A DNA stretch of 61,592 bases from an uncultured Clostridia bacterium (GTDB taxonomy: Bacteria; Bacillota; Clostridia; Christensenellales; Pumilibacteraceae). Positions 1-11,861 of the stretch are shown one piece after another. Location of the stretch: NCBI GenBank assembly GCA_947178255.1, contig CAMWXP010000005.1, positions 1 to 61,592 on the forward strand, read 5' to 3'. Both the position numbers and the translations under genes were made by a program. A model generated the notes under the pieces. The model searched no databases. It was not told where the DNA came from and worked only from the letters and a program-made list of their open reading frames with translations. Each line of letters starts with the position of its first letter. The first letter of the stretch is position 1.

Positions 1-1578
1 TAGACAAACTATACGGCGGCGTAGGTGTTCAAACGCAATTACCACCAGCCCGCCACAAGCACCCAATTTGAACCCAAGAGGAACAAATTGAGTGCTTTTT
101 CTATTTGTGCGGTATTCGCGGAGTTCGTTTAAGTCGCTTTTGTCTAACTTTACTTTTGTCGGCGTGTTCGGCGAAGTGTTGTAAAAGATATAAACGCAAT
201 CATCAAATAAAACCACGCGGTATATGAACGAGTTGAAAAACTCGTTCTTTTCTTCGCCGTTTTCGTATTGTTTCCGCGCAAAGTAATTTAAGAACGCTTT
301 TACTTTTTCGTAGTCGAGTGGCTGTATTTGACGAGCTTTTTCAACCGCAATCTTGCTTTCCAACTCGTCGTTTTGTCGTTCTAATTCAAGCAATTTCTCT
401 TTCGTGGACTTCGTAACTATGCCTGCCGCTATTGCCGAAAGAAAACCGTCGATTGCTTTCTGTGCTTGTTTTTGTTCCTTTTCAAGTAGTGCAAGCGTGT
501 CGGACTTTTGCAAACCTTCGTTAAACTTTTCGGTAACCGTAAGCGCAAGTTTGTCTATAACGCCCGATTGTAATACATACTCAACAGTCTTTCCGAAAAC
601 CAAATCTTCCAACTTCTCTTTGGTAATATTAGACTTATTGCATTGTTCTTTGTGTAGTTTACGGTTAAAGCACTTGTAGTAGTGGTACACCTTTCCCGTA
701 TGGCTTGTTCCGTCCTCGGCTGTCATAAGCGTACCGCAGTTGCCGCAAAACAGTTTTCCGCTAAGTATGTATTCGCTGTGTCCTTGAACTGCTTTTTGTT
801 TGTGCCGTTGATTGTCCATTATCCTATTGCAAACAGTAAAGGTTTGTTCGTCCACAATCGCAGGCACTATGTTGGTGTATGTAGTGCCGTTGCTTATAAC
901 CACGCCCATATACTTGCTGTTGCGGATTATCTTGGCAAAAGAGTTGACCGTGAACTTCGCGCCGGTTTTGTTGTGTATGCCCATTTCGTTTAAGCGGTTG
1001 ACTATGCTTTTCGCTTTCTCTCCGTTCTTGTAACGCTCGAACATATCTTTCACTATGGGCGCTTCAATCGGGTTAATAGTCCAACGCTTGTCCACGACGT
1101 CATAGCCGAATAACTTGTATCCGCCTATAAAGTAACCTTTACTCAAACTTTCTCTAATACCGCGCCGTACCTTTTGCGAAAGCTCGGCGGAGTAGTATTC
1201 TGCCATACTTTCAAGAACACCCTCGATAAGAATGCCGCTTGCATCTTCGGTTATATTTTCTTTTGCCGAGAGTACGCGCACGCCGTTTTTCTTTAACTTT
1301 GCCTTGTAGTTCGCACTGTCGTAACGGTTACGAGCAAAGCGGTCGAGTTGGTAGACAAGAACATAATCGAACGTCTTTTTCTTGCTGTCCTCAATCATTT
1401 GCAAAAAGTTGGGACGCTTGTCCGTCGTTCCAGTCAAGGCTCGGTCTATGTATTCTCCAACAATAAGTAAGTCGTGCCGCTTGGCGTAGTCATAGCATTC
1501 CCGAAGCTGACCTTCGATTGATTGTTCCGTTTGCGTGTGCGAACTGAATCTCGCATATATAACCGCTCGTTTATTCAT
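1..1578 (-). CDS. Large serine recombinase (partial, runs off left edge)
   Basis: The reading frame is open from an ATG at 1578 to the window edge, giving 526 codons without a stop. The N-terminus has the resolvase signature YARFSS, whose serine is the expected nucleophile, followed by SIEGQ and YQLDRFARNRY. A recombinase domain follows at about residues 160-260. A zinc-ribbon with CGNCG and two later cysteines spans about 280-335, and a charged coiled-coil tail follows. This order is that of large serine integrases, which integrate and excise elements at att sites. The SD AAAGGAGAAC lies just upstream of the ATG. The gene points out of the island, so its 3' end probably lies at the element boundary. 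I infer that it mobilised the 1-10.35 kb segment. Confidence 0.93.
   Translation of the reverse strand, partial: MNKRAVIYARFSSHTQTEQSIEGQLRECYDYAKRHDLLIVGEYIDRALTGTTDKRPNFLQMIEDSKKKTFDYVLVYQLDRFARNRYDSANYKAKLKKNGVRVLSAKENITEDASGILIEGVLESMAEYYSAELSQKVRRGIRESLSKGYFIGGYKLFGYDVVDKRWTINPIEAPIVKDMFERYKNGEKAKSIVNRLNEMGIHNKTGAKFTVNSFAKIIRNSKYMGVVISNGTTYTNIVPAIVDEQTFTVCNRIMDNQRHKQKAVQGHSEYILSGKLFCGNCGTLMTAEDGTSHTGKVYHYYKCFNRKLHKEQCNKSNITKEKLEDLVFGKTVEYVLQSGVIDKLALTVTEKFNEGLQKSDTLALLEKEQKQAQKAIDGFLSAIAAGIVTKSTKEKLLELERQNDELESKIAVEKARQIQPLDYEKVKAFLNYFARKQYENGEEKNEFFNSFIYRVVLFDDCVYIFYNTSPNTPTKVKLDKSDLNELREYRTNRKSTQFVPLGFKLGACGGLVVIAFEHLRRRIVCL
27..55. repeat. Left att-like half repeat (candidate attL)
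   Basis: The sequence is GTTCAAA, 14 variable bases, then GCCCGCCA. It lies in the 3' end of the recombinase frame. The same two blocks with the same 14-base gap recur at 10295-10323 in the same orientation. That encloses the recombinase and the whole defence operon. The match is only 15 of 29 positions, so the assignment is tentative. Confidence 0.35.
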
Positions 1579-2963: not shown

Positions 2964-2992
2964 TTGCGATTTCAAACAATTTATGTTATAAT
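2964..2992 (+). promoter_or_regulatory. Sigma-A-type promoter of the defence operon
   Basis: TTGCGA (2964-2969) and a perfect TATAAT (2987-2992) are separated by 17 bp. The predicted transcript starts near 3000, leaving a leader of about ten bases that contains GTGGAGTG before the TTG start. Confidence 0.75.
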
Positions 2993-3010: not shown

Positions 3011-6000
3011 TTGAATAACGTGATAAAATTTTCGGCAGGTTACAATTTTATAAATCCGAATTTTGTTATTCAAAATATGGATGAGCCTAAAGAATGGGCT
3101 AATCCAATTTTTGCCGTGCTTCACAACTTGCTTTTGCGTGGCTGTCCTACATTTCCATCGTTATATTTACGTCAAGAATTTGGTGTCACCGGCAGTACCA
3201 TAAATGATAAATATAGCCTTGATTTTGATAACTTGAATTGGGATAGTATAATACGAGGCGGAGACACATCTAATCCGGGCTTGTATTTTTATAGACACAT
3301 TTTGCCTAAATATGTTCCACTTGCTGGTTCTTTTATTCCTGAATTTCCGGTTAGCGAGATTCTTCAAAATAAAAGTGATGCGCGCTTTAGACAGGTAGAT
3401 TTTTATTCTCCTATATACAATACAGCCATAGAAATTGACGGTACACAACATAGTTATGGTGAACAGCAAGTTAAAGACATAACGCGAGATGAACTGTTTA
3501 AGCGTAATGGAATACAACTGATTAGAATCACTACAAGCGAATTGACTAATGAGTCGATAGTTAAAAATAAGTTAGCGGGAATTGAAAAAACTCGTCTTGA
3601 TTTTATCAAGACCAAGCTTTCACAAATGGATACGGCATACTGTAGTGCTATTAGATTGCAGCTATTGTTATTGTATCTTTATGCAACGGAGAAGATAGAA
3701 CTTTCAACCAATAAGCTGAATTTATACGTATTTGCTGATTTTAACACCTCGACTAATACCATTCAAGCTATATTAGATGACTTCTATATGTGGCTCAAAA
3801 ATATAGCAGCATTACAACATATTACCATAACAAAACCCGTCATAAATCTTACTATATGTAAATCCGAGCAAGAGCTTATACATAGCAAAGCACTCAAAGT
3901 AGATATATCGTTAACAAAAGTTTATAGTGCCCCGAAGGAAAGTGATGTGTACTACATTCGCAACGATTATTTTCCTTTTAGCAAGCAAGACGATATAGTG
4001 CAAAATACAAACGCAATTTCTAATGCATATGAGTCGCCAATCGTAAAACGAAATTATTATCGAGTGGCTTGTGCTTCAATTGCTTATGACGTAAGTATTG
4101 AAGAACATAAAAACAACTTGCTTTATCTATTACGAAATATATCGAATGGTTCATATAAAGATTTTCGCGCCAATCAATTACAAATTATTACAACGGCATT
4201 AAATTGCCGCAGTGTAATCGGTTTATTGCCTACGGGCGCAGGCAAATCGTTATGTTATCAAATCACTGCCCTTCTAATTCCGTCAATGACCATAGTTGTT
4301 GAGCCGCTTAAACTGTTAATGTTAGACCAATATGAGCACTTGTGCGATAATCTTGGCATAAATAACTCTACTTATATCGATTCATCACATACCGAACATT
4401 TAAGCTTGTTTACGCAAGAGCAATCGCTTATTACGTTAGTATCTCCCGAACGGTTTTTTAGCAAGAAATTTGCCGACTCCGTTTCAAGCCCTGAACATAA
4501 AGGACATATAGGTTTTATAGTTATAGACGAGGCACATTGTTTGTCGGAATGGGGACACGATTTCCGCACGTCATACTTATGCCTTTCCCACAATTTGGCA
4601 ACTATATTGCCGCCTGAAACATATTTGATGGCATTAACGGGCACAGCGTCTCCCAGTGCATTAAAAGATATTGAAAATGAGTTTTACTATTTCAAGCAAA
4701 AGGTCGTGCCTACAATTTCAGCGGAAACAATGCGGCGCGATAATCTTAATGTTGTAGTCAAAAGCTTTTCGGAACAATTCGATATGTACAACGCATTGTT
4801 CGATACTCTTTATAGAACATTAGCCGGCAGGGATAACAAAAAGACCCTCGTATTTACAAAGACTAAACGAGCTAGAACTAAAGACTTATGTGCATCCGCT
4901 TGTTTGTCTCTTTGTGAGCGGCTTTCTGAAGAATCAAAACAACTCACGAGCAAAAAAGTTGTAAATGTGTTTGCGGGCGGAGATGAAATATCGGATGATA
5001 AGAAAGAACGATTGCTTAACGATTTCAAAGGCGATACGGATTTGCGTGTTTTGGTAGCAACTAAAGCTTTTGGAATGGGCATTGACATTAACGATATAGC
5101 AAGAACTATACATTATGGCTTGCCTTCCTCAATAGAGGGGTTGTATCAGCAAATAGGTCGTGCCGGGCGTGATAGAGAACAGTTCACCCCTAAAAAGCCA
5201 GCGGAGTGCTACATATTTTTCAGAGAAGAAGATAAGAAATGGTATAATTACTTTTTCAACCGTTGCGGAGATAAAGAAACTACCATACAGCACGATATAA
5301 CTATTCAAGAAATATTAGATAATCAAGACAACTTAAAAGAGTTGAATACAAACTTCTTCTTCATACAAAACGCTAATCTCGATGTTGAAACGGAATTGAA
5401 AGTTGTAGAAAGACTTCTTAAAGGGATACGTATTCGCAATGAGCATAAAGCGGATTATGTTGATTGTGCGACGATGTGTGATGTGCTATTGCGAGATGTA
5501 AACGATACGCATCTAAACTCGTTGCTAATGCCAAAAGGCAAGCTAACATCAAATGCTACAATTATATTGGAAAGAGCATTATACAGACTGTTTTTGCTTG
5601 GCGAAATAGAAATGTGGAACGTGGTTTACGGCTCGGATGTAATAAATCCGACTTATACTAATTTGCGTTTAACCGAATATAGCGAAGATAATAAACTTGA
5701 AAGATTGAAAAAGCATATCGAGCGATATGACTCGCGTGCAGAGGTTTTACCGTCTATTAACACCTTTGAAGAGAGAGCTAAGGCACTATTGGAATGGTCG
5801 TATAAAACTTTTTTATTGGAACGCATAAAGTCAATGAAAACGCTGTATGATTGGTGTTTGGGTTTTTCCAAAAGCACAGAGTTTATGGACAGTATGGAGT
5901 TCTATTTTACGTGCGACCCATTGTATTTGAAATTAACAGAACAAATACTTGAGTTAACCGATTGGTATGCTCCCCTCCGTAGAAATCCACAAGAGACAAA

Positions 6001-6376
6001 AAAGAGTATTGCCCGACTTTTGGAGGCTTATGAAAATAGAGATCCATTAAATTATGTCTCGGGCATTACTAGATTGCGACTCGGTGAGTTTTCCGATAGT
6101 GATGGCGAACGCAGGCTTAATATGAGTTTCGGTGGTATCAAGCAAATGTCGGAACAAATGCGAATGGAGTTATTTGTAGAAACGTACAAATTTCTTGATT
6201 CAAATATCGCTGACACATTTGTTGAAAAATGGTTGCGCTATATTCCCGAAGATGCTCGAAAGATATACGACTATTCACGCAATCCCGCCGCGGAGAACTT
6301 CATAATAATAAATTTTGCCAATGACTTTATTAAAGTAAAGGAGAAACTGTATGATAGATTACACAAAAATGGATAA
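3011..6376 (+). CDS. RecQ-like helicase fused to an N-terminal VSR/DUF559-like nuclease
   Basis: This 1121-residue protein starts at TTG behind GGAG; a GTG at 3020 is an alternative start. Residues about 105-190 resemble the VSR/DUF559 endonuclease fold: EIDGTQHSYGEQQ, then RDELFKRNGIQLIRI. The helicase begins near residue 400 with Walker A PTGAGKSLCYQ. It continues with DEAH in VIDEAHCLSEWGHDFR (about 505), motif III LTGTASP (about 545) and motif VI QQIGRAGRDR (about 712), all RecQ-type. About 370 C-terminal residues are unrecognised, with no clear HRDC or zinc domain. It should unwind DNA with 3'-5' polarity, and the nuclease part could cut. It is first in an operon with a membrane-anchored peptide and an ABC-3C system, so I infer a defence role rather than general repair. 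Confidence 0.88.
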   Translation: MNNVIKFSAGYNFINPNFVIQNMDEPKEWANPIFAVLHNLLLRGCPTFPSLYLRQEFGVTGSTINDKYSLDFDNLNWDSIIRGGDTSNPGLYFYRHILPKYVPLAGSFIPEFPVSEILQNKSDARFRQVDFYSPIYNTAIEIDGTQHSYGEQQVKDITRDELFKRNGIQLIRITTSELTNESIVKNKLAGIEKTRLDFIKTKLSQMDTAYCSAIRLQLLLLYLYATEKIELSTNKLNLYVFADFNTSTNTIQAILDDFYMWLKNIAALQHITITKPVINLTICKSEQELIHSKALKVDISLTKVYSAPKESDVYYIRNDYFPFSKQDDIVQNTNAISNAYESPIVKRNYYRVACASIAYDVSIEEHKNNLLYLLRNISNGSYKDFRANQLQIITTALNCRSVIGLLPTGAGKSLCYQITALLIPSMTIVVEPLKLLMLDQYEHLCDNLGINNSTYIDSSHTEHLSLFTQEQSLITLVSPERFFSKKFADSVSSPEHKGHIGFIVIDEAHCLSEWGHDFRTSYLCLSHNLATILPPETYLMALTGTASPSALKDIENEFYYFKQKVVPTISAETMRRDNLNVVVKSFSEQFDMYNALFDTLYRTLAGRDNKKTLVFTKTKRARTKDLCASACLSLCERLSEESKQLTSKKVVNVFAGGDEISDDKKERLLNDFKGDTDLRVLVATKAFGMGIDINDIARTIHYGLPSSIEGLYQQIGRAGRDREQFTPKKPAECYIFFREEDKKWYNYFFNRCGDKETTIQHDITIQEILDNQDNLKELNTNFFFIQNANLDVETELKVVERLLKGIRIRNEHKADYVDCATMCDVLLRDVNDTHLNSLLMPKGKLTSNATIILERALYRLFLLGEIEMWNVVYGSDVINPTYTNLRLTEYSEDNKLERLKKHIERYDSRAEVLPSINTFEERAKALLEWSYKTFLLERIKSMKTLYDWCLGFSKSTEFMDSMEFYFTCDPLYLKLTEQILELTDWYAPLRRNPQETKKSIARLLEAYENRDPLNYVSGITRLRLGEFSDSDGERRLNMSFGGIKQMSEQMRMELFVETYKFLDSNIADTFVEKWLRYIPEDARKIYDYSRNPAAENFIIINFANDFIKVKEKLYDRLHKNG

Positions 6377-6656
6377 TGTAATCCAAAAGCTAGATAAGGG
6401 GGCTGATAGTGTTTTAGACTTGGCGCAAACTCAAGAGGATTTGCACAATGCTATCTCCGCTATGGAAAATACCGTTAATGCGATCAATTCCGTAAAAACG
6501 GAAATGAATAATCTTAAAATAGAAACAAATAATCGATTAGACGCGATTAAGCAACAACAAAACAAGCACAATAAGTTTATGAAAATTGGTGTTTTCATTG
6601 GTGTCGGTACAGCTATTATATCATGTTTGCTTTCAATCATAGCACTATGCATTTAG
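6351..6656 (+). CDS. Coiled-coil peptide with C-terminal membrane anchor
   Basis: This 101-residue protein overlaps the helicase gene by 26 bases, behind a strong SD (AAAGGAGAAACTGTATG). Residues 1-75 are a heptad-rich helix (MENTVNAINSVKTEMNNLKI) and the last 25 residues are one hydrophobic segment (IGVFIGVGTAIISCLLSIIA). It would sit in the membrane by its tail with the coiled coil in the cytoplasm. The tight overlap implies coupled synthesis with the helicase, so it may tether or oligomerise it, or act as the membrane effector of the system. No family is recognised. Confidence 0.8.
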   Translation: MIDYTKMDNVIQKLDKGADSVLDLAQTQEDLHNAISAMENTVNAINSVKTEMNNLKIETNNRLDAIKQQQNKHNKFMKIGVFIGVGTAIISCLLSIIALCI

Positions 6657-6701
6657 ACAAATAAAGGAAGCCTTATTGAGCTTTTACTATGGAGCGATAA
6701 A

Positions 6702-7046
6702 ATGACAGATTATTTATCTATTTTTGAACACTATAAAGACAGCAAAGAGATTAAGGATTTCATCGATGAAATAAAAAAGTTGAGATTGTATTATAATGCG
6801 CAACAGTTTGATGAAATGCAAAAGTATATCAATAGTTTAATGCAAAAGTATTGCGTGGAAACACTAGTATGGAATTCAGTTAATAATAATCCGCCAATAA
6901 CTTATCAGCAATCTTATGTAAACGCGGAAAATTTTTTAATGGCGCAAGGATTTAAAGTTTTATTCTCAAAAGGGACTGATGTCAAAAAGCATTTGTCTCA
7001 AGAAGAAATTAATTTTATAGAATCTATTATCAAGCTTATAGTGTAA
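6702..7046 (+). CDS. Uncharacterised 114-aa protein of the defence operon
   Basis: The gene starts 45 bases after the coiled-coil gene, with GGAGCG upstream of its ATG, and precedes the ABC-3C effector by 25 bases. The protein is acidic and mostly helical (FEHYKDSKEIKDFIDEIKKL). No membrane segment or catalytic motif is visible. Position alone suggests an accessory or specificity factor of either the helicase or the ABC-3C module. Family unknown. Confidence 0.75.
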   Translation: MTDYLSIFEHYKDSKEIKDFIDEIKKLRLYYNAQQFDEMQKYINSLMQKYCVETLVWNSVNNNPPITYQQSYVNAENFLMAQGFKVLFSKGTDVKKHLSQEEINFIESIIKLIV

Positions 7047-7071
7047 ACTCTACAATAATTAAGGAGAAGAA

Positions 7072-8151
7072 ATGGCTTTTGAAGATTTAAAATCGTTCCC
7101 TGTACCTCAAAAAATTATAGTCAAAGATATTGATGGGGACACACGAGTACCATATGAGCGCATTAAATCTTATGACGATAATGAGTACGAACTGTTCATA
7201 CGCGAATGGGTCGTGTCATTAAATGATCGGTTTCAGGTGCGTGGATTCGGAGGCGCTGGAGATAAAGGAAGAGATGTTGTAGCCAAAGACGCTCAGGGGA
7301 AATTTTATTATTATCAATGCAAACATTACGATCATCCATTAACCCCATCGGATGTATATTCTGAATTTGGTAAACTTGTTTATTATACTTTTGTTGGTGA
7401 AATTCCACTACCGTGTGAGTATTACTTATTGGCCTCTCAAGATATTGGAGTAAAATTAAGTGACTTAATAGACAATCCTCAAAAAATTAATAAAGCATTA
7501 TTAGATAATTGGCAAACTCATTGTCAAACGCGAATTTGTTCTACCCCAATACCATTGACTAGTGAATTAAAAAAGTATATAGAAGATTTTGATTTTGGCA
7601 TTATCAAAACCAAAACAATGATGGAAGTTGTTGCTGAACATAAAAAAACGGCTTTCCACGCCTTTCGTTTTGGCGGTGGGCTCACTGTTAATAGGAATCG
7701 CCCTATTTCTGTTCCGCAAAGCACACAAGAAATTGAGACAAATTATATTAAAAAGATATTACTTGCAATAGCGGAAAAAGAGAGAAAGGAAAGTCTTTCA
7801 TTAAGCGAAGTGGAAGAAAGTTTCCCGCAATATTTAGCGTCAATTAAAATGCAAAGAGAGCGATTCTTTTCCGCTGAAAATTTAAAGTTATTTACAAAAG
7901 AACATCTTCTAACCGATGAATATTTTATTGATCTTTGTAATGACATTTTTGATAGTATATACGATTATACAGAACAAACATTTTCTGACGGATATGAACG
8001 CATGAGCACGGTTTTATCCGAAGTAGCTAAGGTTGATTTACATCACAACTTATTAGTTAAATATGACCTAGTCAATCCTAGAGACCGACAAGGAGTTTGC
8101 CATCATTTAGCAAACGAAAGAGAGGATTTTGTATGGACAAACAAAAAATAG
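7072..8151 (+). CDS. ABC-3C effector: Mrr-like nuclease domain plus ABC-3C C-terminal domain
   Basis: This 359-residue protein has two parts. Residues about 35-130 form a restriction-endonuclease-like domain with GGAGDKGRDVVA and YYYQCKHY, the D...QxK pattern of Mrr-type nucleases. Residues about 220-359 match the C-terminal domain that marks effectors of ABC three-component conflict systems, including FSAENLKLFTKE, SDGYERM and the terminal PRDRQGVCHHLANE. SD AAGGAGAAG. In such systems the ATPase is thought to license the effector on sensing invasion. The next two genes supply the other two components, so the set is complete. It overlaps the next gene by 19 bases. Confidence 0.85.
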   Translation: MAFEDLKSFPVPQKIIVKDIDGDTRVPYERIKSYDDNEYELFIREWVVSLNDRFQVRGFGGAGDKGRDVVAKDAQGKFYYYQCKHYDHPLTPSDVYSEFGKLVYYTFVGEIPLPCEYYLLASQDIGVKLSDLIDNPQKINKALLDNWQTHCQTRICSTPIPLTSELKKYIEDFDFGIIKTKTMMEVVAEHKKTAFHAFRFGGGLTVNRNRPISVPQSTQEIETNYIKKILLAIAEKERKESLSLSEVEESFPQYLASIKMQRERFFSAENLKLFTKEHLLTDEYFIDLCNDIFDSIYDYTEQTFSDGYERMSTVLSEVAKVDLHHNLLVKYDLVNPRDRQGVCHHLANEREDFVWTNKK

Positions 8152-8450
8152 AGCTGTCTCAGCAAAGACTAATTTTGGAGCTGTCATTAATTTCAACTCT
8201 ATATAAAAGCGGCAGCAAATTATCCATTTTGCAAATTACAGGTATCCTGAATAATACTCGATATTCTAATGAGTTTATTCGTATGGCATTGCAAAATCTT
8301 GTTTCTTATGGGATTGCATCAGTTGAGTTCTATGAAAAGCAAAAAACATTATATCAAATCTCAAAATTTGGAAAGTATTTCTTTGAAAAGTTATTACAAG
8401 AAAATAGTAATATCAAAAAATTTTCAGATAGCATAGGAGTAAACTTATAA
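8133..8450 (+). CDS. ABC-3C middle component (winged-helix-like)
   Basis: This is a 105-residue helical protein. The ATG at 8133 is chosen because AGAGAGGA lies 8 bases upstream; an upstream frame start at 8097 would overlap the effector more deeply and has no SD. The pattern of helices followed by a LYQISKFGKYFFEKLLQE wing suits the small middle components of ABC-3C loci, which bridge ATPase and effector. It ends in TAATG, overlapping the ATPase start by one base. Confidence 0.78.
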   Translation: MDKQKIELSQQRLILELSLISTLYKSGSKLSILQITGILNNTRYSNEFIRMALQNLVSYGIASVEFYEKQKTLYQISKFGKYFFEKLLQENSNIKKFSDSIGVNL

Positions 8451-10237
8451 TGAAAAAGATGGTATTAACTAAATTAACTTTATCCGGACAAGGTAAACAA
8501 GATGCGTGTTTATCTTTTACGAATGGACTAAATGTGATATCTGGAGATTCTGACACTGGTAAAACATATGCTTTTCAATGTCTTGACTATATGTTGGGGA
8601 AAGAAACTCCACCCAAAGATATATTGGAAGCTCACGGGTATTCGATTATTACATTAGAATTTAAAGTAGAAAATGAATTCTATAGAATACAAAGAAAAAT
8701 TGGCGAGAATAAATTTACGGTATTTCATAATAACGACACTAGGACTTTATCATATAAGCATGATCCTTATAGTACAGAAAATCTTTCAAGATATCTATTA
8801 AGTATCCTATCTGAGAGCAAAGACAACCTTTATGTCCGCACAAACGCGCAGAAGAAAATTCGCACTCTTTCTTTTAGGGATATGGTGCATTTATGCTTAA
8901 TATCCGAGACAGATATTATTGCTGAAATTTCTGCATTTCAATCTATCCAATATACCGAAAAAACAGTTAGAAATTCCATTCTTAAATACATTATTACGGG
9001 ACAAGACGATTCGACTTTAAAAGCCGAAAAAAATACAACCGAAGAAACAATCCGAAGAGCAGGTGTAGTTCAATTTTTGGAGAGAAAGAAAACGGAGATA
9101 GAACAAGATATCGCGGTAATTGAAAATGATGAGCACTTTAAGTTTTATATTAATGACTCTACTTTAAATGATGCAATTATAAAAATACAATCGCTTCGCA
9201 AAGAAATAGCAAACACTCAACATGAGTTAACAAAACTTAATGCAGAAATAACTAATTTAAAGAAAGTATGCGTAGAAGATGAAGCTAGTATTTCGGAATT
9301 TGAAAAATTAGAAGAGCATTATGCGGCTGAGCAAAACAAAATAGACATGATATCTTCATATGAGGATTTTGTTTTGCAATTGCCACAAGTGGCCTGCCCT
9401 TTTTGTAAACAACCTATTGACCCTAAAACCCTTAGCGATGAAGATATAGAAGGATTATATGAATATTGGGCGGTAACTCAACAGGATCTACAGGAAAAAA
9501 GAACGGAATTGTTACGTTCCATTAAAGATGTAGAAGAACGTTTGAGAAATAGTCTTGCAAGATTGCAGGAGTTAACTAAACATAGAGATCGACTTAATTC
9601 TGATATAAAAAATAGAGAAGATGAAATAAAATCATTTAGTGAAAGCATTGCTCAAATGCGTGAACTTGATGAAATGAAGAATACACTAAAATTGCTAAGA
9701 AAAGAATTGTTATCAGTTGTCGCAAGTATAGAAGAATATAGTAAAAAGGTTTTTAAAGAAAAAGAAAATTTATCGATGGTTGATAGTAGTCAATATGAGA
9801 ACTATTGTAAAATTATATCCGATACATTAAAATGCTGGGGATTTGCAGAGAATCCACAAGTAAAGTTTGATCCTAATAATTTGGATTTAATCATAGATGG
9901 GAAATCAAGAGATACTTGGGGAAAAGGATATAGAGCATTCATCATGTCCGCAATGGCGGTTAGCTTGATGCGGTATTGTTCTCAGTATAATCGTTTACAT
10001 CCTGGATTTGTCATAATTGATTCCCCATTGGTATCATTAAAGGAACGTAAAAAGGACGAAAATAACAAATGGATTGATTTATATATGGAAAGAAAAATGA
10101 TTGCTGATATTTTAAATAAAGACTCACAAAATCAGGTTATTATTTTTGAAAATAAAGACTTAAAGTTCGACTTTGACTATAATTATATAGAGTACAATCA
10201 TGAAGGCGATACATTAAACGGATTTATCCCTAAATAG
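8450..10237 (+). CDS. ABC-3C SMC-like ATPase (DUF3732-type)
   Basis: This 595-residue protein has Walker A GDSDTGKT at about residues 32-39, then two coiled-coil stretches (about 200-300 and 345-440) around a CPFCKQP zinc hook near residue 315. Walker B with the following segment FVIIDSPLVSLKERK is near 518. This is the SMC/Rad50-like layout of DUF3732 ATPases from ABC-3C systems. The SD ATAGGAGT lies inside the preceding gene. The protein probably senses invading DNA or a repair intermediate. Last gene of the operon; a terminator follows about 100 bp on. Confidence 0.85.
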   Translation: MKKMVLTKLTLSGQGKQDACLSFTNGLNVISGDSDTGKTYAFQCLDYMLGKETPPKDILEAHGYSIITLEFKVENEFYRIQRKIGENKFTVFHNNDTRTLSYKHDPYSTENLSRYLLSILSESKDNLYVRTNAQKKIRTLSFRDMVHLCLISETDIIAEISAFQSIQYTEKTVRNSILKYIITGQDDSTLKAEKNTTEETIRRAGVVQFLERKKTEIEQDIAVIENDEHFKFYINDSTLNDAIIKIQSLRKEIANTQHELTKLNAEITNLKKVCVEDEASISEFEKLEEHYAAEQNKIDMISSYEDFVLQLPQVACPFCKQPIDPKTLSDEDIEGLYEYWAVTQQDLQEKRTELLRSIKDVEERLRNSLARLQELTKHRDRLNSDIKNREDEIKSFSESIAQMRELDEMKNTLKLLRKELLSVVASIEEYSKKVFKEKENLSMVDSSQYENYCKIISDTLKCWGFAENPQVKFDPNNLDLIIDGKSRDTWGKGYRAFIMSAMAVSLMRYCSQYNRLHPGFVIIDSPLVSLKERKKDENNKWIDLYMERKMIADILNKDSQNQVIIFENKDLKFDFDYNYIEYNHEGDTLNGFIPK

Positions 10238-10294: not shown

Positions 10295-10323
10295 GTTCAA
10301 ATTCGGGTGATGGCTGCCCGCCA
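10295..10323. repeat. Right att-like half repeat (candidate attR)
   Basis: GTTCAAA, 14 bases, GCCCGCCA: the same blocks and spacing as 27-55 at the other end of the recombinase-to-ATPase segment. The 14-base middles are unrelated. Confidence 0.35.
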
Positions 10324-10331
10324 ACGTAAGG

Positions 10332-10354
10332 CGCGCTCTAACGAGCGCGTTTTT
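10332..10354 (+). terminator. Intrinsic terminator of the defence operon
   Basis: A CGCGCTC / GAGCGCG stem with a TAAC loop is followed by TTTTT. It is nested in a wider CCGCCAACG / CGTTGGCGG inverted repeat (10319-10364). Confidence 0.75.
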
Positions 10355-10439
10355 GCGTTGGCGGAGGCGGAGAATAGGCAATGCGAAGTGCGCAAAGTAA
10401 AATAATTATATTTGATAAAGTTTAAATAAAACTATCAAT

Positions 10440-10991: not shown

Positions 10992-11861
10992 TCAAAATAA
11001 CTTTAATTGCTCGAATTTCGGACCTTGCGGAAATTCGTGCAAGTACGCGAACAGTTTATTATTGTCGCAAATTATACTGGCTTCTTTACAGCGCTTTTCA
11101 AACAGCACTTGAAGCTGTGCGGCGTTGGGGCTCGCGACCTCGTACTTTCCGCCGTAGGTTCTTATGTACTTTTCCTTTAAGCCAACGAAATGCTTGTCGA
11201 GCTGTTCGTAAAAATATTCTCTATTCCCCTCGCGCAACGTCAAGCCCATTCCGAAGTTGATTATTCCGTACACGCCCGCATCCGCGCAATAGTCGATAAT
11301 CCCGTTTATATTTTGCTCGGTGTCGTTTATAAACGGCAGTATTGGACAAAGCCACACTATCGTCGGCACGCCGTGGCTTTGAAAAGTCTTTAACATTGCC
11401 ACTCGCTCGCTCGTCGTGCTTACGTTGGGCTCTATCTTTTTGCAAAGCACGTCGTCCGCCGTGGTCAACGTGGTTTGCACTACGAACTTGGTCTTTTCGT
11501 TTATCTTACAAATCAAATCGAGGTCGCGCAAAATTCTATCGGACTTGGTCTGCACGGTCATTCCGAAGCCGTACTTGTAAACAAGCTCCATCGCCCCGCG
11601 CGTATAATTCAACTTGCTTTCGAGCGGTATGTATGGGTCGGTCATCGCGCCCGTGCCAATCATGCATTTTTTGCGCTTGCGCCGCAGCGCATCTTCGAGC
11701 AGCTCGAGCGCATTACTCTTAACCTCAATATCCTCGAATTCGTGAGTAAAGCCGTAACACCGACTTCTCGAATCGCAATATATACAGCCGTGCGAACAGC
11801 CGCGGTAAACGTTCATACCGTTATTCGCCGACAATATTCCTTTGGCTTTTGTAAAATGCAC
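10992..11861 (-). CDS. Radical SAM protein, spore photoproduct lyase-like family
   Basis: This 289-residue protein has the cluster motif CSHGCIYC near residue 22, the CxxxCxxC that binds [4Fe-4S] and S-adenosylmethionine. GTGAMTDPYIPLE and VQTKSDRILRD follow, as in the SPL/Rv2578c group of radical SAM enzymes. These act on nucleic acids or unknown substrates; true spore photoproduct lyase is somewhat longer, so DNA repair is only a possibility. The gene is monocistronic and converges on nothing. A 60-bp gap separates it from tspO. Its last codons (KFEQLKLF) are just right of the small hypothetical gene. Confidence 0.85.
   Translation of the reverse strand: MHFTKAKGILSANNGMNVYRGCSHGCIYCDSRSRCYGFTHEFEDIEVKSNALELLEDALRRKRKKCMIGTGAMTDPYIPLESKLNYTRGAMELVYKYGFGMTVQTKSDRILRDLDLICKINEKTKFVVQTTLTTADDVLCKKIEPNVSTTSERVAMLKTFQSHGVPTIVWLCPILPFINDTEQNINGIIDYCADAGVYGIINFGMGLTLREGNREYFYEQLDKHFVGLKEKYIRTYGGKYEVASPNAAQLQVLFEKRCKEASIICDNNKLFAYLHEFPQGPKFEQLKLF

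Follow-up and report, generated by a model that had tools for sequence, protein, structure and literature searches.

The window analysed here is a 61,592-nucleotide stretch of DNA from an uncultured Clostridia bacterium (contig CAMWXP010000005.1 of assembly GCA_947178255.1), in which six genes follow each other on the forward strand between positions 3011 and 10237. The first two encode a RecQ-like helicase with a Vsr/DUF559-type nuclease domain at its N-terminus and a small coiled-coil protein with a predicted C-terminal membrane anchor. Together they form a conserved gene pair, of which no description was found in the open-access literature searched, subscription papers and supplements being outside the scope of this search. 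The six genes are not one system. They comprise three independent modules, namely the helicase and coil pair, a gene for a protein of 114 amino acids (aa), and a Lamassu system. It is proposed that the pair is a self-contained system, in which the coil would tether the nuclease-helicase to the inner side of the membrane and the latter would act on foreign or damaged DNA. The probability of this reading, which is drawn from sequence, is estimated at roughly one half.

The helicase gene occupies 3011..6376 on the forward strand and encodes 1121 aa if its TTG codon is taken as the start. The true start is probably the GTG at 3020 (1118 aa), because the N-termini of homologues, inspected by eye, read MIQLSANY, MKYSASY, and MLKYSANY. 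The nuclease domain, delimited by alignment and predicted fold, spans residues 87–196 (3269..3598, forward strand). Its assignment to the Vsr/DUF559 type, already made in a first-pass annotation of this DNA by a model that saw only the letters and a list of their open reading frames, draws on sequence, motif, and predicted fold combined. At the level of sequence, residues 129–181 match DUF559 with 21.7 bits, against a Pfam cut-off of 20.6; the homologues at loci L029, L087, and L122 also score above this cut-off and the one at L023 scores below it (16.9 bits). Six residues, D130, E141, D143, H147, D156, and R159, do not vary across ten aligned helicases. The structure prediction that the first-pass annotation had recommended for the N-terminus gives a nuclease fold: the model of residues 1–380, with a mean predicted local distance difference test score (pLDDT) of 67, aligns best to I-Bth0305I (3r3p; Z 10.5, root-mean-square deviation [rmsd] 2.5, 94 residues), followed by 3hrl (Z 9.5, rmsd 2.8, 92 residues), Vsr itself (1cw0; Z 9.2, rmsd 2.2, 96 residues), and another Vsr-type nuclease (8.7). 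The folds ranked next after the Vsr-type nucleases are two mitoribosomal proteins (8.0) and TnsA (7.0).

The RecQ-like core of the protein (residues 381–753, 4151..5269, forward strand) was identified by profile matches. It scores against RecQ_fam with an E-value of 5e-62 and 210.1 bits, slightly below the cut-off of 219.8, and also matches solved RecQ helicases. The helicase motifs TGAGKS408, DEAHC506, and GRAGRD716 are intact. The protein does not qualify as a RecQ equivalog, with 217 bits against a cut-off of 640.2. The remaining C-terminal region (5270..6373, forward strand) is mostly helical in its predicted model (pLDDT 69, predicted template modelling score [pTM] 0.49), and this model did not clearly match any fold in the structure comparison.

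The gene of the partner (6351..6656, forward strand) begins ahead of the helicase stop, with an overlap of 26 bp, and encodes 101 aa. Hydropathy and heptad signal agree with the coiled-coil peptide and C-terminal membrane anchor that had been read from the letters, both of them as predictions. The hydrophobic segment, presumed to form a transmembrane helix, reaches a Kyte–Doolittle value of 2.53 over 19 residues and extends to the last residue of the protein (6582..6653, forward strand, the left edge being approximate). The heptad signal, obtained with a home-made, simple score, has a p-value of 0.025 relative to 200 shuffles. The same score lies above shuffled sequences at p 0.03 or less in all 14 partners of nuclease-RecQ loci, which vary in length from 101 to 292 aa. 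The tails of these partners look plain, with no conserved polar or charged residue evident; they end at or near the C-terminus and are mostly preceded by basic residues. The 101-aa protein matches the start and the tail of the 205-aa partner at L023 (E 6e-11). Membership of a Pfam, PADLOC, NCBIfam, or PHROGs family was considered for the coil protein, and the matches were discarded as weak and apparently coil-driven.

An argument for treating both genes as a unit is their constant association. One example is L023 in a Clostridia relative, where a full-length helicase with 56% identity is followed by an overlapping partner gene. In total, 14 different nuclease-RecQ loci were compared: the window, L023, L086, L087, L088, and L089 from genomes of the class or phylum; plasmid loci of enterobacteria, Salinibacter ruber, Rhodothermus marinus, and Haliscomenobacter hydrossis; and L033, L034, L036, and L122 from viral contigs. 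The hosts include Bacillota, Pseudomonadota, Bacteroidota, and Rhodothermota. All 14 have an adjacent coil gene, which in 13 carries a sole, C-terminal predicted anchor, and the helicase and coil genes overlap in 11. These loci were collected via the helicase and not via the coil. They were counted with a looser nuclease pattern, set after a first pattern had missed L034 and L036. L029 stands for a single lineage in these counts, into which L030, L179, L180, and the further enterobacterial copies were merged. The plasmid searches returned 248 records (20 listed; H2, H6, and H9 examined) and 44 records (40 listed; H59, H60, H70, H71, and H79 examined). H70 is an ordinary RecQ with a neighbor on the opposite strand and enters no count, and R. 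marinus DSM 4252 (H61) was left out.

The controls support the specificity of this association. An anchored coil neighbor follows none of 20 ordinary RecQ genes and none of seven other helicase open reading frames (ORFs), and a sole C-terminal anchor is present in seven of 1075 unrelated ORFs of 90–320 aa. An anchored coil neighbor is likewise absent from the 20 other viral matches, among which the frames of L038 and L047 run off the contig end and those of L051, L054, and L055 have no Walker A motif. A further 55 viral loci (L124–L178) contain no RecQ-like helicase. Fisher's exact test of 13/14 against 0/20 gives 1.5e-8, a value to be read with the related loci not being fully independent. 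A search of the phylum with a whole-helicase profile was dominated by ordinary RecQ and was used solely as a source of long frames and controls. The 14 nuclease forms cluster together, with support of 99/97, in a tree built from 47 helicase cores. This tree leaves out L226 and one of the two helicase ORFs of L222, lost to the motif cut or to a repeated key, and L033 is a long branch in it.

The same tree groups eight forms without the nuclease (support 88/73), beside the remaining RecQ genes. These helicases, of approximately 860–1230 aa, lack the nuclease motif and also carry an anchored partner, in six of the eight cases by the strict rule. In the other two, the partner of the Thermus locus L196 lies beyond a transposase, and that of L221, a 192-aa coil ORF labelled 'none' in the tree, falls just under the hydropathy threshold (tail value 1.76 against 2.1). 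At L196, the transposase gene stands between the helicase and the coil-anchor gene (6888–7988). By the heptad score, two of the nuclease-free partners are weak, those of L090 (p 0.035) and L091 (p 0.065). Since the nuclease-free forms keep the partner, the latter seems tied to the helicase and not to the nuclease. Nuclease-free RecQ genes with a partner were seen at L090, L091, and L218–L221. These loci come from five species sampled within a single genus and from one further genome, and the genes possibly have a resident function.

In the system proposed here, the C-terminal helix of the coil partner would anchor the complex at the inner face of the membrane and the N-terminus of the coil would bind the helicase. 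The helicase would load on DNA that looks foreign or damaged, such as ends, gaps, or forks in phage or plasmid DNA that is entering the cell or being replicated, and the nuclease would then nick or degrade it. Sequence and comparison show the domains, the intact motifs, the constant pairing, the coil with its anchor, and the independence from Lamassu and from the 114-aa gene; contact of the two proteins, a membrane location, such a DNA target, and a role in defence are inferred as the most likely interpretation. A different use of the membrane protein is conceivable as well. The coil could be the effector: the nuclease-helicase would sense phage DNA, upon which the coil would oligomerize and damage the membrane, so that the infected cell dies. 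Small membrane effectors are common in defence, and the retention of the partner where the nuclease is absent fits with this idea. Still, a tether is favored over a pore because of the variable length of the partners, the plain tails without an evident shared polar or charged residue, and the basic residues that precede most of these anchor-like ends. The partner at L033, which has no tail at all, also speaks against a coil effector, which is therefore regarded as unlikely.

Several observations weigh against the membrane-held nuclease-helicase as well. Firstly, neither the anchor nor the nuclease is universal. The coil partner at L033 (7995–11911 of a 206-kb IMG/VR contig) has no membrane tail, so the membrane is not always needed; three neighboring proteins at this locus have no PHROGs match, and the contig is viral only by its IMG/VR listing. 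Anchored partners also accompany nuclease-free helicases, five of the eight such forms coming from species of one genus. Secondly, the coils are too divergent to be aligned confidently as one family, the only direct match being that between the 101-aa protein and the L023 partner. Thirdly, Foldseek alone returned no match below E 0.001 for the N-terminal model, of which the confidence is middling. Lastly, L023 lies among genes that were read as ordinary chromosomal ones.

The genes around the pair bear on its role. In the window, the pair shares its setting with Lamassu. A type III restriction–modification (RM) system precedes it at L086; in two E. coli chromosomes it is flanked by type I RM and MZA, and on a Raoultella plasmid it has a type I RM system nearby. 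A retron-type reverse transcriptase and a WYL regulator are found at L034, HerA at L088, a phage head gene and an integrase at L122, and a terminase at L036. The own genome of the window contains, on contig C27 (L024:3240–3307), a 68-nt relic of the 5′ end of the helicase with 88% identity, located between CBASS genes (a 2TM effector and a cyclase) and a type I RM operon; a second copy was thus probably once present. The distribution is patchy: a full-length helicase occurs in one of the 101 genomes searched among relatives, which is the own genome, and in two of 391 genomes of the class sample, the own genome included. Among 5426 E. coli genomes, seven carry a close relative of the enterobacterial helicase, and in two of these the match is interrupted by an insertion sequence. 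The restriction, MZA, retron-type, CBASS (relic), and prophage neighbors and this patchy distribution support a role in defence. The same data can be held against a membrane-associated DNA repair or recombination helicase that would be found with defence genes by chance. Such a housekeeping role would suit L023, which stands alone beside chromosomal-looking genes, and the nuclease-free forms that, together with their partner, occur in five species sampled within a single genus. It is rendered improbable by the rarity of the nuclease form, its defence and prophage neighbors, the low GC content of the locus, and the copies broken by insertion sequences.

Additional domains and genes are joined to the pair at some loci. 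The helicase at L087 has a zinc ribbon of topoisomerase type at its N-terminus. The enterobacterial form carries an N-terminal HAD domain and a phosphoribosyltransferase (PRTase) domain like that of ShosT, with a ShosA-like DprA gene upstream. At L029:5863–11986, and in relatives on enterobacterial plasmids and chromosomes, the order is DprA, a 1558-aa fusion of HAD, PRTase-like, nuclease, and RecQ parts, and the coil-anchor gene. By its sequence, this arrangement appears to be a hybrid of ShosTA-like parts and the pair. At L034:4567–11841, an apparent operon consists of the genes for the retron-type reverse transcriptase, a 241-aa protein, the nuclease-RecQ protein, and the coil-anchor protein, with the WYL regulator nearby. 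A generalization, given a little less than even odds, is that the pair belongs to a widespread, unnamed family of immune systems with a core of RecQ-like helicase and tail-anchored coil and with exchangeable parts, namely the Vsr-type nuclease, the zinc ribbon, HAD and PRTase with DprA, and the retron-type reverse transcriptase. Within this family, the tether would place both the surveillance and the cutting of DNA at the site of entry of foreign DNA.

The enterobacterial form also invites comparison with RqlHI/PsyrTA, in which an accessory RecQ-like helicase likewise shares its operon with a gene for a small partner. RqlH is reported to be genotoxic on its own and to be countered by RqlI, and its toxicity maps to its PRTase domain (PMC4670107). 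By analogy, the pair could be a toxin–antitoxin module, with a toxic helicase restrained by the coil in the way that the DprA-like RqlI restrains the RecQ-like RqlH. The upstream ShosA-like DprA and the N-terminal HAD and PRTase-like extension of the enterobacterial relatives are features in common with these systems and lend some weight to this possibility. These same relatives hold both a DprA and a coil, meaning that the coil is not simply the antitoxin. Moreover, the window helicase differs by its Vsr/DUF559-type nuclease and has no PRTase match in Pfam or NCBIfam, none of the window genes scanned matches a PRTase or DprA, and no DprA-like antitoxin is encoded by genes 2–6. An anchored coil partner finds no mention for RqlHI in the available text of that study (PMC4670107). 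A toxin–antitoxin pair is consequently considered quite unlikely. The label PsyrT was rejected for the window helicase, which has no PRTase match and no DprA match in genes 2–6.

Other known systems share single features with the pair. DpdF, from the Dpd system for 7-deazaguanine, is represented by PADLOC model PDLC02868. Almost the full length of this model aligns with the enterobacterial helicase (E 3e-112), and the window helicase is matched in its core. The name DpdF was rejected for the window helicase, which scores 126 bits against an NCBI cut-off of 550. Genes 2–6 of the window match no Dpd model, the rest of the genome not having been searched for dpd genes. Hachiman (HamAB) is described as a two-gene defence system (PMC12278908), in which a helicase that senses DNA integrity works with a nuclease. 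The pair resembles it in uniting helicase and nuclease in a two-gene unit, but its nuclease is of the Vsr type and fused to the helicase, and its partner is a coil with a predicted membrane anchor. HamA and HamB do not figure among the best 25 of the 34 families matched by the helicase. In Zorya, ZorA combines a coil with a membrane part and works with helicase or nuclease partners. Two of the partner proteins have weak, coil-driven matches to ZorA models; unlike ZorA, the coil of the pair has a single tail anchor and matched no motor domain. As far as is known, helicase–nuclease defences are mostly described as soluble machines that survey DNA. A conserved pair in which the helicase-nuclease brings along its own membrane anchor would be a novel design. 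The pair also accounts for a set of proteins whose only annotation, in very different bacteria, is 'RecQ family ATP-dependent DNA helicase' or 'DEAD/DEAH box helicase' with a 'hypothetical protein' after it. More generally, defence genes may be assembled from exchangeable parts around a fixed core.

The third gene of the window (6702..7046, forward strand) encodes the 114-aa protein, an accessory protein that represents a separate module. It is not a unique orphan, as eight clear homologues (E below 1e-13) were found in 200 other genomes; another five matches, weak and partial and located in long frames, were left out of this number, and the plasmids and viral contigs searched contain none. 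Several of the homologues have restriction-type genes as neighbors. The genes next to the homologues encode, among others, a protein resembling a DNA methyltransferase (L112), a ResIII helicase (L114), an enzyme of type IIG-like character (L116), and a recombinase (L118), the names at L112 and L118 being the authors' reading of the sequence. Genes were listed for eight of the 11 homologue stretches, with the upstream side unseen at L111 and L113, which start at the contig end. In several members of the family (the window and L111–L118), the C-terminal tail resembles 'FIESxIKPME', and the long proteins at L116 and L117 end similarly.

That the helicase, the coil, and the 114-aa protein make up one three-gene system had been suggested in the first-pass annotation, which considered the first three genes as a possible undescribed helicase-nuclease-membrane unit. 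Within the window, the shared strand and the short gaps agree with such a unit. The stretches read around the 13 other nuclease-pair loci and the eight nuclease-free loci contain no relative of the 114-aa protein, LmuA, the middle gene, or LmuB; conversely, the eight stretches with a 114-aa homologue contain no relative of the helicase or of these three Lamassu genes. What is left of the unit is the two-gene pair, which does occur without ABC-3C in 13 other loci, and the co-occurrence that the annotation had proposed to examine holds for the helicase and the 101-aa gene and not for the 114-aa gene, whose homologues have no fixed partner. The absence of the 114-aa family from those 13 loci and its eight other settings without the helicase make the three-gene system hardly tenable, and the 114-aa gene is a separate small passenger. 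A single system of all six genes or of the first three was rejected, because Lamassu, the pair, and the 114-aa gene are found separately from each other.

Genes 4–6 are assigned by family matches to Lamassu, described as the family that includes ABC-3C (PMC10586767); genes 1–3 are unrelated to it. LmuA (7072..8151, forward strand) has a Mrr-like N-terminus with the motifs GDKGRDV63 and QCK82, where Mrr_cat scores 19 bits against a cut-off of 21, and a C-terminal ABC-3C domain of the CTD6 type (E 6.7e-29 in Pfam). The protein as such matches its PADLOC model with E 2.4e-84. LmuB (8450..10237, forward strand) is an SMC-like ATPase with Walker A at residue 32, CPFC at 316, and a Walker B-like VIIDSP at 521, and matches its PADLOC model over the entire protein (E 5e-120). 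The reading of genes 4–6 as ABC-3C, made from the letters, is supported. The small gene between them (8133..8450, forward strand; 105 aa) has no convincing family match in Pfam or PADLOC and is called LmuC, the presumed middle component, from its position and size. No LmuA homologue was found in 200 other relatives, and no LmuB relatives in the viral contigs. LmuA is matched by 143 plasmid records; in the two of these homologues that were examined, no helicase relative is present within the 13 kb read, just as L023 has no Lamassu gene in 13.9 kb. Downstream of the pair, Lamassu makes up a second layer of defence, independent of the pair, and the segment that holds both is probably mobile. The stacking of the pair on ABC-3C thus stands as a matter of placement, with nothing that links the two functionally.

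As to the layout of the locus, all six ORFs were verified at their positions on the forward strand, with gaps below 50 bp as claimed: 45 bp between the coil gene and the 114-aa gene (6656–6702) and 25 bp between the latter and LmuA (7046–7072). The middle gene overlaps the LmuA gene and shares one base with the LmuB gene. The six genes have a GC content of 34.5%, compared to 45.4% for the window at 11001–61592. It is plausible that they form one transcription unit. The single promoter placed at 2964..2992 (forward strand) is a TG-extended site, TTGCGA-17-TATAAT, with a fair 10/12 match that is not beyond chance by itself, as promoter-like matches in the window are near chance (41, against 32.7 with a standard deviation of 5.5 in shuffles). 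The terminator placed at 10332–10354 coincides with a strong hairpin (10316..10370, forward strand; minimum free energy −38.4 kcal/mol), a possible terminator that was not listed by the terminator scan of the window. The hairpin is part of a dispersed repeat (10318–10433), of which partial copies exist elsewhere in the own genome and in two genus relatives. Similarity of the window to relatives picks up again at 10994. Upstream of the helicase are short ORFs and a large serine recombinase (1..1578, reverse strand, by sequence), which runs off the contig start and suggests a mobile element. Two near-identical palindromes, AATCGGG...CCCGATT, also lie upstream of the helicase, at 2796–2812 and 2841–2857, and are possible operator or recombination sites.

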